Source: an uncultured Clostridia bacterium
GTDB lineage: Bacteria > Bacillota > Clostridia > UMGS1883
DNA: 64,000 bases
Assembly (NCBI GenBank): GCA_947626145.1
Contig: CANQRB010000004.1
Span: 93,250 to 157,249 of the forward strand
Direction: 5' to 3'
Below are positions 5,289 through 46,730 of this stretch, piece after piece. The notes under the pieces were generated by a model. It worked only from the letters and a program-made list of their open reading frames with translations. It was not told the origin of the DNA and did no database searches. Position 1 is the stretch's first letter, and every line of letters starts with the position of its first letter. A program made the position numbers and the translations under genes.

Positions 5289-6371
5289 ATGTCCAGAGTT
5301 TATAACTTTTCCGCAGGCCCCAGCATGCTCCCCCTGCCCGTCCTTGAGAAAGCACAGGCCGAGCTTCTCGACCAGGGCGGCAGCGGCCAGAGCGTAATGG
5401 AGATGAGCCACCGCAGCAAGGAATTTGACGTTATCATCAAAGAGGCAGAGGCTCTCCTTCGCGAGCTTATGGAGATCCCCGACAATTACAAGGTAATGTT
5501 CCTTCAGGGCGGCGCGTCCACCCAGTTCGCCATGATCCCCCTCAACTTCCTGAACGGGAGCGGCAAGTGCGACTGCGTTATCACCGGCCAGTGGTCCAAA
5601 AAGGCCGCAAGCGAGTTTGAGAAGTACGGCAAAGTAAACCGTGTGGCTTCCAGCGCCGACAAGACCTTCTCCTACATCCCCGAGCTTGACCCCGCCACCT
5701 TCGACCCCGAGGCCGATTTCTTCCATATAACATACAACAACACCATCTACGGCACACGCTACACCGAGCTGCCCGACACCGGCAACGTGCCCCTGATCGC
5801 CGACATCTCCTCCTGCATCCTTTCTCAGAAGATAGATGTCTCCAGGTTCGGTATGCTCTACGCCGGAGCCCAGAAGAACGTGGCTCCCGCCGGCGTTACC
5901 ATCGTCATCGTCCGCGAGGATATGCTGGGCAAGCAGAGGGACATCACCCCCACCATGCTCAACTATCAGATAATGGCCGACAACGGCTCCCTTTACAACA
6001 CTCCTCCCTGCTGGTGCATCTACATCTGCAAGCTGGTTCTCGAGTGGCTCAAGGAAATGGGCGGCATCGAGGCCATGGAAAAGGTAAACGTTGAGAAGGC
6101 CAAGATACTCTATGACTTCCTTGACAGCTCCGAGCTTTTCAAGGGCACGGTCGTTCCCAAGGATCGCTCTCTCATGAACGTTCCCTTCGTTACCGGCAAC
6201 GAGGAGCTTGACGCCAAGTTCGTCAAGGAGGCCAAGGCCGCCGGTTTTGTGAACATAAAGGGTCACCGCACCGTGGGCGGTATGCGCGCCAGCATCTACA
6301 ACGCCATGCCTGTCGAGGGCGTAAAGGCTCTTGTGGAGTTCATGAAGAAATTTGAAGCCGAGAATAAGTAA
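5289..6371 (+). CDS. serC: Phosphoserine aminotransferase
   Basis: This 360-residue class V PLP aminotransferase converts 3-phosphohydroxypyruvate plus glutamate to phosphoserine, the second step of serine synthesis; the same enzyme can act in pyridoxine synthesis. The SerC N-terminus ([11 protein letters not shown]) and the PLP-lysine motif [10 protein letters not shown] near residue 195 are clear. The frame is open further upstream (from 5187), but AGGAGG at 5274-5279 and the family N-terminus fix the ATG at 5289. It sits 14 bp before serA and shares its consensus promoter, so the two form a serine operon. No serB-type phosphatase is seen nearby. Confidence 0.96.
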
Positions 6372-6385
6372 GGAGCAAAGCAACC

Positions 6386-7552
6386 ATGTATAATCTCTTA
6401 ACTCTCAATAAAATAGCCGCCTGCGGCCTTGACAACTTTGACAGGGCCAAGTACACCGTAAGCGGCGAGTGCGAAAACCCCGACTGCATAATCCTGCGCA
6501 GCTTTTCCATGCACGAGATGGAGCTGCCCGAGAGCCTTAAGGCCGTGGCCCGGGCCGGCGCGGGCGTGAACAATATCCCAATCGACAAGTGCACCGAAAA
6601 GGGCATCGTGGTGTTCAACACCCCCGGCGCCAATGCCAACGCCGTTAAGGAGCTGACCATCGCCGGTCTTCTGCTGGCATCCAGAAAGATAGTTGACGGC
6701 ATCAACTGGGCCCAGACCTTGAAGGGCGAGGGCGACGCCGTGGGCAAGCTGGTGGAAAAAGGCAAGAGCAACTTCGCCGGCTGCGAAATAAAGGGCAAGA
6801 CACTGGCCGTTATCGGTCTGGGCGCCATCGGCGTGCTGGTGGCCAACGCCGCCCACTCTCTGGGCATGAAGGTTGTGGGCTATGACCCCTATGTTTCCGT
6901 AAAGTCCGCCCTCAGCCTCAACAGCCATGTGACCATCGCCAAGGAGATCAAGGACGCCCTTTCCGAGGCCGATTACATCACCCTGCACCTGCCCCTTCTG
7001 CCCGACACCAAGGGCATGATGAACGCCGATATGTTCAAGACCGCCGTCAAGAAGGGCGCAAAGCTCCTGAACTTCTCCCGCGGCGGACTGGTGGACAATG
7101 CGGCTTTGAAGTCCGCTCTCGAGGTTGGTCTGCTGTCGGTTTATGTCACCGACTTCCCCGACGCCGAGGTGCTGGAGATGGAGAACGTTATCGCCATTCC
7201 CCACCTGGGAGCCTCCTCCGCCGAGAGCGAGGACAACTGCGCGGTAATGGCCGCTCAGCAGCTCATTGACTTCATGGAGAACGGCAACATCGTCAATTCC
7301 GTGAACTTCCCCGCCTGTGAACTGGCCCGCGGCGAGGGTGAGAGAGTGACCATCATGCACAAGAACGTGCCAAATATGCTCTCCCAGTTCAGCAACGCCT
7401 TTGCTTCCAAGGGCATCAACATTGAGAACATGGTGGACAAGAGCAAGGGCGACAACGCCTACGCCATCATGGACGTGTCCGGCAACGCCGACGCCGTGGC
7501 CGAGGAGCTCACCAAGCTGGACGGCGTTATCCGTGTCCGTGTTATAAAGTAA
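6386..7552 (+). CDS. serA: D-3-phosphoglycerate dehydrogenase
   Basis: The 388-residue enzyme oxidises 3-phosphoglycerate with NAD+, the first step of serine synthesis. The Rossmann fold carries GLGAIGVLVANAAHSLGM (about residues 147-164). The catalytic Arg lies in FSRGGLVDN, the Glu near LEMENV and the His in PHLGASSAES. A C-terminal ACT domain (about 315-388, starting at GERVTIMHKNVPNM) is expected to bind serine for feedback control. It lacks the long intervening domain of type 1 enzymes. AAGGAG overlaps the serC stop and serves the ATG at 6386. A strong hairpin at 7566 ends the operon. Confidence 0.95.
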   Translation: MYNLLTLNKIAACGLDNFDRAKYTVSGECENPDCIILRSFSMHEMELPESLKAVARAGAGVNNIPIDKCTEKGIVVFNTPGANANAVKELTIAGLLLASRKIVDGINWAQTLKGEGDAVGKLVEKGKSNFAGCEIKGKTLAVIGLGAIGVLVANAAHSLGMKVVGYDPYVSVKSALSLNSHVTIAKEIKDALSEADYITLHLPLLPDTKGMMNADMFKTAVKKGAKLLNFSRGGLVDNAALKSALEVGLLSVYVTDFPDAEVLEMENVIAIPHLGASSAESEDNCAVMAAQQLIDFMENGNIVNSVNFPACELARGEGERVTIMHKNVPNMLSQFSNAFASKGINIENMVDKSKGDNAYAIMDVSGNADAVAEELTKLDGVIRVRVIK

Positions 7553-7565
7553 ATCTTATGTAGCT

Positions 7566-7593
7566 AAAATGGGCTGTTTTTACAGCCCATTTT
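7566..7593 (+). terminator. Terminator after serA
   Basis: The perfect 12-bp stem AAAATGGGCTGT/ACAGCCCATTTT has a TTTT loop. Its own 3' arm supplies the short U-run. Confidence 0.8.
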
Positions 7594-7613
7594 AAATACC
7601 GAAAGGAAAACCG

Positions 7614-8096
7614 ATGAATAATCTTACAATCCGGCGGGCGGAGCCAAAGGACACTCCCCGCATAACGGACCTCTTAAATCAGGTGCTGACTGTCCACCAT
7701 AATGGCCGTCCCGACCTTTTCAAGGCCAACTGCCGCAAGTACACCGATCCGGAGCTGGCGGACATCATCGCCGACGACAGCCGACCCATATTTGTGGCCG
7801 AGGACGAAAAGGGCTTTGTGGCGGGCTATGCTTTCTGCGTATTAAAGCAGTATCTCAACGACAACATCCTCACCGACATAAAGACCCTGTACATAGACGA
7901 CCTCTGTGTGGACGAGAATGTCCGGGGCCGCCACGTGGGCAGCGCACTGTACGACTATGTTCTGGATTACGCCCGAAGCATAGGCTGTTACAACGTGACG
8001 CTCAACGTCTGGGCCTGTAATCCCGGCGCCATGGCCTTTTATCAGAGCAGGGGCCTTGTACCGCAAAAAATTGGTATGGAAAAGATATTAAACTAA
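7614..8096 (+). CDS. GNAT family N-acetyltransferase
   Basis: The 160-residue protein has a single GNAT fold: an N-terminal strand with RRAEPKDTPRI, a central beta strand with IDDLCVDE, the acetyl-CoA pyrophosphate loop in VRGRHVGSALYDY (about residues 104-116), and the late NPGAMAFYQSRG motif. The substrate is not predictable. GAAAGG precedes the ATG. Oddly, the stop codon TAA lies inside the terminal inverted repeat of the MITE-like element that begins at 8091, so the insertion supplied or shifted the 3' end of the gene. The final residues (KILN) fit the family length, so any loss is small. Confidence 0.9.
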   Translation: MNNLTIRRAEPKDTPRITDLLNQVLTVHHNGRPDLFKANCRKYTDPELADIIADDSRPIFVAEDEKGFVAGYAFCVLKQYLNDNILTDIKTLYIDDLCVDENVRGRHVGSALYDYVLDYARSIGCYNVTLNVWACNPGAMAFYQSRGLVPQKIGMEKILN

Positions 8097-8335
8097 TCCC
8101 AATTAAAAGCGTCTGATAAAGCCTTCCCCTTCGAGGGGAAGGTGGCACGAAGTGCCGGATGAGGTGTAGGATGCGAAGCATCCGTTATACGTATATGGTT
8201 ACACTAACGCCGCACAGCGGCTACACCTCATCAGTCGGCCTTCGCCGACAGCTTCCCCTCGAGGGGAAGCCTTTTTTATCTGTCATTGTTACCGTAATAA
8301 ACTCACATATTGGTGATTTTAATTTGGGATTAGTA
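8091..8335 (+). mobile_element. MITE-like palindromic element, copy 1
   Basis: This 245-bp element is bounded by terminal inverted repeats CTAATCCCAATTAAAA and TTTTAATTTGGGATTAG, with TA at the right edge (AA at the left). The inside is a series of hairpins: CTTCCCC..GGGGAAG, GGCACGAAGTGCC, GGATGCGAAGCATCC, GCCGCACAGCGGC, GTCGGCCTTCGCCGAC. A long-range pair (GATGAGGTGTA with TACACCTCATC) encloses them. It has no gene of its own. Full copies lie at 12457-12693 (inverted) and 16916-17160, and an end-less copy at 20711-20860. The last hairpin, GCTTCCCCTCGAGGGGAAGC followed by CTTTTTT, can act as terminator for the acetyltransferase. TA flanks suggest, but do not prove, movement by an IS630/Tc1-type transposase. 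Confidence 0.8.
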
Positions 8336-45117: not shown

Positions 45118-45372
45118 ATGGACGACAAATGCCTTATGGAAGGACTTCTCCTTTTGGAGAAGGGCGGCTGTGACCTTTATATGCACGGCGCCATCGAATC
45201 CTCTACCGACAGCGTGCGCCGGGTTTTTGACGGCGCGCTGAAGGACTCTCTGTCCATGCAGGACAGCATCTATGCGGATATGGAGCAAAAGGGCTGGTAT
45301 ACCACGGACAACGCGGAGCGGCAGAAAATAGACTCCGTCAGGACCAGGTACAGCAGCACCGTCACCGCGTAA
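45118..45372 (+). CDS. CotF-family spore coat protein
   Basis: The 84-residue protein has the CotF-family ending ALKDSLSMQDSIYADMEQKG with the YTTDNAERQKID tail. Such short proteins are found on spores of Clostridia, usually as pairs like this. AAAGGAGG at 45103-45110 supports the ATG. A strong hairpin at 45381 terminates the unit and is duplicated at 46182. Confidence 0.8.
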   Translation: MDDKCLMEGLLLLEKGGCDLYMHGAIESSTDSVRRVFDGALKDSLSMQDSIYADMEQKGWYTTDNAERQKIDSVRTRYSSTVTA

Positions 45373-45380
45373 CGGAACAA

Positions 45381-45424
45381 TCAACAGCAAAAAATCCCCT
45401 TGCGAACGCAAGAGGATTTTTTTT
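45381..45424. terminator. Bidirectional terminator, direct-repeat copy A
   Basis: The stem AAAATCC-CTTGCG / CGCAAG-GGATTTT is flanked by A and T runs, so it works for the coat genes (+) and the JAB cassette (-). The 42 nt from 45381 recur at 46182 with one mismatch (TCAACAGCAAAAAATCCCC at the start). Confidence 0.85.
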
Positions 45425-45433
45425 GCTTACGCA

Positions 45434-45562
45434 TCATACCGCTTTCTTATTCCTGAGCGCAAGCTCAGCTTCCAAAGCCTTTATGGCAGCTTCAAGCTCT
45501 TCTTTTGTCATCTTTTTTATGTCATCCGGAATGATAACATTGTCATTTAATCTTTCTTCCAT
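45434..45562 (-). CDS. Small 42-residue protein coupled to the JAB gene
   Basis: The stop codon of the JAB-domain gene is followed immediately by this ATG (TAAATG), and GGGAGG at the end of the JAB gene is its ribosome site. The product starts MEERLNDNVIIPDDIKKMT and continues as one charged helix (KEELEAAIKALEAELAL), a likely short coiled coil. No family is recognised. The tight coupling suggests a partner, regulator or antitoxin-like role (inference). Codon use is AT-rich like its neighbour. Confidence 0.6.
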   Translation of the reverse strand: MEERLNDNVIIPDDIKKMTKEELEAAIKALEAELALRNKKAV

Positions 45563-46138
45563 TTATTTAACCTCCCAAAAATCAATTTTAAATCTACTTT
45601 TTAATTTTTCAAGGGCTGTTATCTGAGCCTCATATTCAGAAACTCCATCCTTAAGCGCGGATTCAATATACATATTGTACAATGTTACGTTTATTTGCTC
45701 TGAGGACGTGTATACAAACAACCTGCCGTCATGACAAACAACGCAGCCAAGCTTGTAACCGTTTATATAACAGGAGTTGAAATCCGCAGCACTTGGCGGC
45801 ATACTTCCGGGGTGGGTATGAACAGCTATCAGGCGATTTTTTTCATAAGATGAAATTGTTCGCTTCGTGACCGCGGAATATACAATTTCCCGCATTTCCG
45901 TCGAAGAGATTTCTTTCGCGACAATTTTACCTGTCTCCCCATCAATCCAATACATATCTTCGCAGGTCGTTCCGCTGCGATGTTTCAACATTTCCTTAGC
46001 CTTATTATATAATATCCTGTTTATTTTTTGATTATCCGTTATTCTGTCAAATTTTTTCCTATATTCTCCACTTTCTATATATGTATTATTAATCAATGTT
46101 TCCTTATTCCGACCATATCTTTGGTACTCTAATGACAT
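45563..46138 (-). CDS. JAB/MPN-domain putative metalloprotease
   Basis: The 191-residue protein carries the zinc signature HTHPGSMPPSAAD (about residues 106-118), an HxHP...SxxD site of the JAB family, preceded by DMYWIDGETGKIVAKE (about 62-77). The family includes RadC-like, phage-tail and polymorphic-toxin peptidases and deubiquitinases; the HPxSxPPSxxDF phrasing is closest to the toxin/effector-type group (by eye). The gene is clearly AT-rich against its surroundings and has its own promoter (46158). It is bracketed by two copies of the same terminator, all signs of insertion. AGGTGATA is its ribosome site. Confidence 0.8.
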   Translation of the reverse strand: MSLEYQRYGRNKETLINNTYIESGEYRKKFDRITDNQKINRILYNKAKEMLKHRSGTTCEDMYWIDGETGKIVAKEISSTEMREIVYSAVTKRTISSYEKNRLIAVHTHPGSMPPSAADFNSCYINGYKLGCVVCHDGRLFVYTSSEQINVTLYNMYIESALKDGVSEYEAQITALEKLKSRFKIDFWEVK

Positions 46139-46157
46139 ATTTGTATCACCTGTTTTT

Positions 46158-46185
46158 ATTATATCACTTTTTTCAAATTTGTCAA
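46158..46185 (-). promoter_or_regulatory. Promoter of the JAB cassette
   Basis: On the minus strand TTGACA (46185-46180) and TATAAT (46163-46158) are exact consensus hexamers with a 16-bp spacer. The -35 overlaps the first bases of terminator copy B. Confidence 0.8.
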
Positions 46186-46223
46186 CAGCAAAAAATCCCC
46201 CTGCGAACGCAAGAGGATTTTTT
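46182..46223. terminator. Bidirectional terminator, direct-repeat copy B
   Basis: This is the same 42-nt unit as copy A with one mismatch (C for T in the stem). It ends the minus-strand acetyltransferase gene, whose stop is 18 bp away. Confidence 0.8.
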
Positions 46224-46241: not shown

Positions 46242-46730
46242 CTAATCACTAATTAGCTTCATTGTCATATCGTGCCAAACTATCCCGCCCAGCACGGACT
46301 CGGAAAGGCCCTTGTCCTCAAAGCCGAATTTGGCGTAATAGTGTACCAGCCGGGGCTTGCAGGTCAGCGCGGCGGTCTTTATTCCGTTCTTCCGAGCCCT
46401 TTCAAGCAGGGCCCTCATCATTGCGGCGGCTACCCCTCTGTTTCGGCAGTCCGGACGGGTGACGACGCCGAAAATCAGCAGATTTTCCCCATCGGGGTCG
46501 GCCCCGCCCGGGGTGTAGACCTCGTCCACAATAAGGGTTTTGTGTGAGAGTACCCCGTCGATGTGGCCGATAAGCTCCCCGCCTTCCCACGCGGTCAGGA
46601 AATATTCCGGAAAATTTTCCATCCGGTATTTCAGCGACTCCTGTCCGGCGGCCTCGCTGCCGGGGAAGCCGACTTTTTCCAGCCGGACAAGGGCGTCAAG
46701 ATCTTCCGGTTTGGCGTTGGTTATCGTCAT
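46242..46730 (-). CDS. GNAT family N-acetyltransferase
   Basis: The 162-residue GNAT protein starts TITNAKPEDLDALVRLEKVG, has the strand LLIFGVVTRPDCRNRGVAAA (about residues 90-109) with the acetyl-CoA loop, and ends with LVHYYAKFGFEDKGLS. The layout fits the YhbS-like group that acetylates small molecules or proteins. Substrate unknown. Confidence 0.88.
   Translation of the reverse strand: MTITNAKPEDLDALVRLEKVGFPGSEAAGQESLKYRMENFPEYFLTAWEGGELIGHIDGVLSHKTLIVDEVYTPGGADPDGENLLIFGVVTRPDCRNRGVAAAMMRALLERARKNGIKTAALTCKPRLVHYYAKFGFEDKGLSESVLGGIVWHDMTMKLISD

Follow-up and report, generated by a model that had tools for sequence, protein, structure and literature searches.

We analysed a 64,000-nt stretch of DNA (the window) from contig 4 of a 2.44-Mb Clostridia genome, in which a two-gene cassette lies between convergent flanks, with Coat_F genes on the left (one of them a weak Pfam match to Coat_F) and a GNAT acetyltransferase gene on the right (Table 1). 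An earlier note on this DNA had proposed that two 42-nt terminators bracket a JAB-domain gene and a 42-residue partner between these flanks, and the arrangement is real. The two repeats are identical at 41 of 42 positions and are the only strong copies of this sequence in the whole genome; comparing one flank with the other gave a score of 40, whereas mismatched flank pairs have a 99th percentile of 16 and reach 36 at most. Because each repeat consists of a 16-bp inverted repeat with a 5′ A-run and a 3′ T-run, the terminators are bidirectional; the right copy has one additional mismatch in its stem. The consensus promoter and the foreign-looking base composition that had been ascribed to the cassette were likewise confirmed. 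TTGACA (46185-46180) and TATAAT (46163-46158) match the full consensus across a 16-nt spacer, AGGTG and an ATG follow downstream, and the right repeat overlaps the −35 hexamer by 4 nt. GC content is 0.35-0.40 inside the cassette versus 0.52-0.61 outside.

The partner ORF begins immediately past the JAB stop codon, and the final JAB codons (TGGGAGGTT) contain GGGAGG, a Shine-Dalgarno sequence for the partner; a Shine-Dalgarno-like sequence stands at this position in 67 of 92 relatives. The cassette is built as a two-protein operon with its own promoter and coupled translation, a likeness to type II toxin-antitoxin systems in architecture only. Further, the 48 nt upstream of the JAB ATG translate in frame to a linker peptide of MuF phage proteins (VDKFEKSDIIKTGDTN).

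Table 1. Features of the cassette and its flanks, in window coordinates
Feature	Position	Strand	Basis
JAB/JAMM-fold protein, 191 aa	45563..46138	-	ORF list; invariant columns in 56 relatives; model pLDDT 94; fold matches
42-aa partner, translationally coupled; motif IIPDDIKKMTKEELEAAIKALEAEL; presumed immunity protein or antitoxin	45434..45562	-	ORF list; homologous ORF after JAB in relatives
Sigma-A promoter TTGACA-16-TGATATAAT; homolog of the promoter nested at MuF/cargo junctions	46158..46185	-	sequence
Shine-Dalgarno AGGTG of JAB gene	46147..46151	-	sequence
MuF linker vestige VDKFEKSDIIKTGDTN, in frame, now 5′ untranslated	46139..46186	-	cf. MuF junctions [VIL]DKSxxSGII
Right 42-nt repeat, hairpin terminator lying upstream of cassette and overlapping its -35	46182..46223	.	
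Left 42-nt repeat, terminator downstream of partner and of convergent coat genes	45381..45422	.	
Flanking gene, Coat_F domain, outside cassette	45118..45372	+	PF07875 E 2.7e-16
Flanking gene, GNAT acetyltransferase, outside cassette	46242..46730	-	PF00583 E 1.1e-14

Pfam gave a sub-threshold match of the larger protein to the Prok-JAB motif (E 0.14), but an AlphaFold2 model built with 56 relatives (pLDDT 94) matches JAMM/JAB structures and upholds the JAB assignment. The best rows of a VIA-align search are JAMM proteins, headed by P. furiosus JAMM1 (Z 8.6, 118 residues, 3.4 Å) and including a bacterial Ubl-deubiquitinase complex (8tyx, Z 7.1) and BubCD (9ea4, Z 7.1). Foldseek against the PDB returned weak E-values (best 0.042, for RadC 2qlc); among viral proteins, the top structural matches are minor capsid proteins, with E 2e-22. 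The JAMM metal-site pattern (Glu + H-x-H ... S-x2-D) is present as E60, H107-x-H109, S116 and D119. E60, H107, H109 and D119, together with H53, R54 and H136, are invariant in 56 sequences, and S116 is conserved in at least 90%; these residues would fit an active JAMM metal site. The spacing from H109 to S116 is one residue shorter than in AMSH and RadC. Elsewhere in the genome, the protein that does score above the Prok-JAB cut-off (427 aa; L001, G000:C8) adjoins a ThiF-like protein of 247 aa, a pair that we take to resemble a PRTRC-type plasmid or integrative-element locus.

The homologs of the window JAB protein form the C-terminal cargo of MuF proteins, the minor capsid proteins of phages, for example in the annotated Streptococcus phage MissF, and this agrees with the foreign appearance of the cassette. 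The domain is encoded at 51 viral-contig loci and at the best 80 genome loci. About 15 of these 80 are MuF fusions; in the other ~65, most of them stand-alone, the JAB frame gives no MuF match, although some of these loci lie at contig ends and distant MuF forms may have escaped the MuF profile. The window protein is itself stand-alone, with no N-terminal MuF domain of the PF04233 type. We found no plasmid relatives, and a PHROGs search gave no usable match.

The partner is a recurrent feature of these loci. Within a few tens of bases of the JAB stop, nearly all viral loci have an ORF of 43-69 aa; with a minimum length of 30 aa, 47 of the 51 loci yield one. Partners of the clade that includes the window copy have the motif DDRxIIPDxIKKM[ST]xEExxxEIxRLE, and in other clades the sequence varies with the JAB subtype; the proteins are short, mostly acidic (charge variable, +3 to −10) and belong to no known family. 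In the MuF polymorphic toxins of temperate phages, a small ORF lies directly downstream of 89.4% of the toxin genes and is regarded as a presumed immunity protein (Jamet 2017, PMC5576092). The same position is occupied in the window, with no gap, and is kept in relatives; the 42-aa protein is accordingly placed with the presumed immunity or antitoxin proteins.

Sequence comparison shows the window promoter to be the same block as one that lies at the MuF/JAB junction of the phage genes. There, inside the MuF frame and just 5′ of the JAB domain, stand a near-consensus promoter (TTGACA-16/17-TGNTATAAT), a Shine-Dalgarno sequence and ATG, GTG or TTG. At least 10 of the 12 hexamer bases are matched at 27 of 28 distinct MuF/JAB junctions; background MuF windows reach this level in 4 of 496 cases and never score 11 or more. 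The junctions are related by descent and so are not independent counts. One of the three start codons is found at the JAB start in 24 of 28 junctions, compared with 5% of codons. Of the 29 fused units, 15 have a terminator after the partner, as do 31 of the 58 stand-alone ones. Among distant MuF-JAB genes, the nested promoter was found in 3 of 35, which indicates that the block is specific to one junction type and not to MuF-JAB genes in general. When 30 MuF genes were picked by PF04233 alone, about one third had promoter matches of at least 11 in the C-terminal part and none in the N-terminal control; some of these matches come from a different junction type, and Tyr-Asn codons may account for them. 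Same-strand strong promoters around the cassettes show no global excess (19, compared with 15 on the other strand). From the junction sequences, we infer that the nested block drives transcription. A second MuF junction type, with the peptide DKFxxxKYND (L339, L352, L356 and L357), spells TTGACAAAT...GAAGTATAATGAT, either as a promoter or through mere codon choice.

A search of the genus for the block recovered MuF genes with other cargos in a prophage of the window genome (G000:C5) and in the sister species G007 (C1, C124 and C138, with three different cargos behind the junction block); the block also occurs with another cargo in G291. The prophage of the window genome (G000:C5:48000-67000, L318) carries the same nested block in a MuF gene (PF04233 E 2.3e-12) with an HEYYGH metallopeptidase-like cargo. 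A tandem arrangement on G007:C1 (L319, minus strand, 5929-8161) comprises MuF with a metallopeptidase-like cargo, a 70-aa ORF, and a copied MuF tail with the block, leading to a PBECR2 nuclease cargo. Orphan arrays with repeated blocks, called solely where the linker peptide is present or the flanks are repeated, were found at L118, L126, L133 and L139. In the chromosomal array L126 (3954-6650), four near-identical promoter blocks each precede a different small gene set.

These arrays bear on how the window terminators came to be duplicated. The repeats had been read in the earlier note as an insertion-site duplication, a proposal that does not hold up. The JAB gene is present in two of the eight genomes of the genus, the window genome and G007, and is therefore not core; the case of a core housekeeping family did not arise. 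The G007 cassette sits at the same locus and is 92% identical, but a palindromic MITE-like element of ~330 nt takes the place of the right terminator, leaving a single copy, and the coat-side terminator lacks the TCAACA that the window repeat includes. In other species of the genus, the coat gene or the GNAT gene has different neighbours and terminators (in G003, another gene adjoins the GNAT gene). Consequently, none of the eight genomes offers a clean empty site, in which a single terminator would stand without the cassette, and target-site duplication by insertion was rejected on this ground and on the unlike borders in G007. Border direct repeats in other genomes (L118, L126 and L133) are unit-boundary repeats of tandem arrays. 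Most likely, the window repeats are a copied unit boundary of the kind seen in L126, made up of a terminator and the start of the next promoter. The MITE-like element lies at about 2114-2458 of L004 (G007:C104) and has the ends AAAAGGRGCYGTAAAAAAA; a similar sequence occurs 3′ of the coat gene in G004 (L010).

Between the window species and G007, dS is 0.32 for the JAB gene, 0.30 and 0.32 for its neighbours, and 0.50 for the partner (126 nt). Because the JAB value equals that of the neighbours, the cassette is older than the species split and was shared vertically with the sister species. The dN/dS ratios of 0.13 (JAB) and 0.04 (partner) indicate that both genes are under purifying selection.

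We consider it probable that the cassette represents an orphan MuF polymorphic-toxin/partner module, expressed by itself from a portable nested promoter and kept by purifying selection. It combines the features of such a module: cargo homology, no delivery part, a retained partner, the junction block and a linker vestige (VDKFEKSDIIKTGDT). Temperate phages of gut Clostridia carry the JAB domain as the C-terminal cargo of their MuF minor capsid protein; as MuF biology suggests, it is probably packaged in the phage head and delivered with the DNA. Because the junction also holds a promoter, a Shine-Dalgarno sequence and a start codon, the cargo could be made with its partner and without MuF. The block precedes other cargos and recurs in tandem arrays, so cassettes can probably be swapped there or left behind by recombination, still expressed. 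The window copy would be one such detached cassette, with its own promoter and with translation coupled to the partner. Its JAB protein is most likely a zinc JAMM protease or isopeptidase restrained by the 42-aa helical partner; the pair would behave like a toxin and antitoxin and may also give immunity against phages with the same cargo. A wider proposal, to which we give a little less than even weight, is that the junction is a portable promoter-start block of one large clade of Clostridia prophages. Its cargos would then be dual-use, as virion effectors and as intracellular toxin-antitoxin-like or superinfection-immunity pairs, the block would also supply homology for swapping cassettes and storing them in self-expressing orphan arrays, and the window cassette would be a fixed, selected survivor.

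Other explanations were weighed for both the DNA and the proteins. The promoter-like block could simply reflect conservation of the linker peptide DK-x4-SGII, with no role in transcription: it is coding sequence in the MuF genes, and a Tyr-Asn peptide elsewhere likewise yields TATAAT through codon choice. The codons themselves make this improbable. At peptide-defined sites, the junction Ile codon is ATA in 16 of 16 cases (background 0.38) and the Asp codon GAC in 14 of 15, a synonymous bias of the kind that a promoter would require. Further, the −35 hexamer falls in two different reading frames, encoding [VL]DK at junctions with a 16-nt spacer (n = 18) and LT at those with a 17-nt spacer (n = 10), with its position kept, so the conserved peptide alone is no explanation; and the block persists where it is non-coding, 44 of 61 stand-alone copies scoring at least 10. 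We regard as similarly doubtful the idea of a small mobile element that brought both genes to a terminator, duplicating its target site as it inserted. Near-identical direct repeats at both borders and an AT-rich insert are what such an element would leave, but the ORF list includes no transposase or recombinase in the cassette, the genus provides no empty site, in the sister species the border differs and a single terminator accompanies the cassette, and what relatives have in common is the promoter block and not the terminator.

For the proteins, the main rival to a toxin/partner module is a counter-defence JAMM isopeptidase, which would be injected by the phage or made in the lysogen to strip ubiquitin-like tags of host anti-phage systems, with the small ORF as adaptor or chaperone. 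The deubiquitinases among the best solved-structure matches and the invariance of the catalytic-type residues are in its favour; the fold, however, is common to RadC-type JAB proteins without such activity, and a tightly placed, co-varying small ORF suits immunity better, leaving this reading unlikely but the most serious of the alternatives. The earlier note had suggested a defence or toxin-partner module. Its toxin-partner half is supported by the MuF cargo homology and a small ORF of the cognate type, but its defence half is not, as a PADLOC search gave no defence-protein match at E ≤ 1. JAB proteins do occur in defence systems and as RadC, and RadC 2qlc is among the Foldseek matches; Pfam RadC, however, matches 3 of 61 members weakly (best E 0.0021) and the window protein not at all. 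An anti-phage defence module, or a RadC-like host housekeeping JAB with a small ORF beside it by chance, is the least credible of the explanations that we considered.

An orphan MuF module can be set against several known systems. Like the MuF toxins of temperate phages (PMC5576092), the cassette has relatives in which MuF is joined to a variable C-terminal cargo, a small downstream ORF, and an occurrence in Firmicutes and the gut; unlike them, the window copy has lost MuF and stands alone in the chromosome. The words JAB and orphan are absent from the main text of that study, in which we also found no mention of an internal promoter. Nor did a literature search, whose reach excluded most subscription-journal papers, turn up a report of an internal promoter for phage MuF toxins. 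JAB-superfamily domains are known as polymorphic-toxin cargo in Tox-JAB-1 and Tox-JAB-2/DUF4329, for which the table rows list T2SS, T6SS, T7SS and TcdB/TcaC delivery and not MuF (PMC3482391). The present family differs from Tox-JAB-2: of its 61 members, a single one matches DUF4329, weakly, and the window protein does not.

Phage morons have their own promoter, often their own terminator, and deviating base composition. The window cassette shares its own promoter, its own terminator and its deviating GC content with them; unlike morons, this type of cassette also occurs fused in frame to a structural gene.

The closest precedent is the internal promoter of Salmonella Rhs toxins, in which a conserved promoter, P2, lies upstream of more than 50 cargos of main and orphan genes and expresses them as toxin-antitoxin modules (PMC7043789). 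Both systems place a conserved promoter and start within the delivery gene near the cargo junction, ahead of many toxins, with toxin-antitoxin-like expression from main and orphan copies. The delivery gene of the Rhs system is, however, of T6SS type and unrelated in sequence, whereas here it encodes a phage head protein; and promoter activity was measured for Rhs (PMC7043789), whereas we infer it for the MuF junction. The Rhs study raised the question of whether other toxin families do likewise (PMC7043789), and with the MuF junctions, the class of polymorphic toxins that have an internal promoter would reach beyond Rhs genes to include phage head proteins. In a lysogen, a nested promoter would supply a partner otherwise encoded in a late operon, outside the lytic programme. 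The DNA tag TTGACAAAT-N10-TGRTATAATA could be used to find new MuF toxin/partner pairs in gut bacteria.
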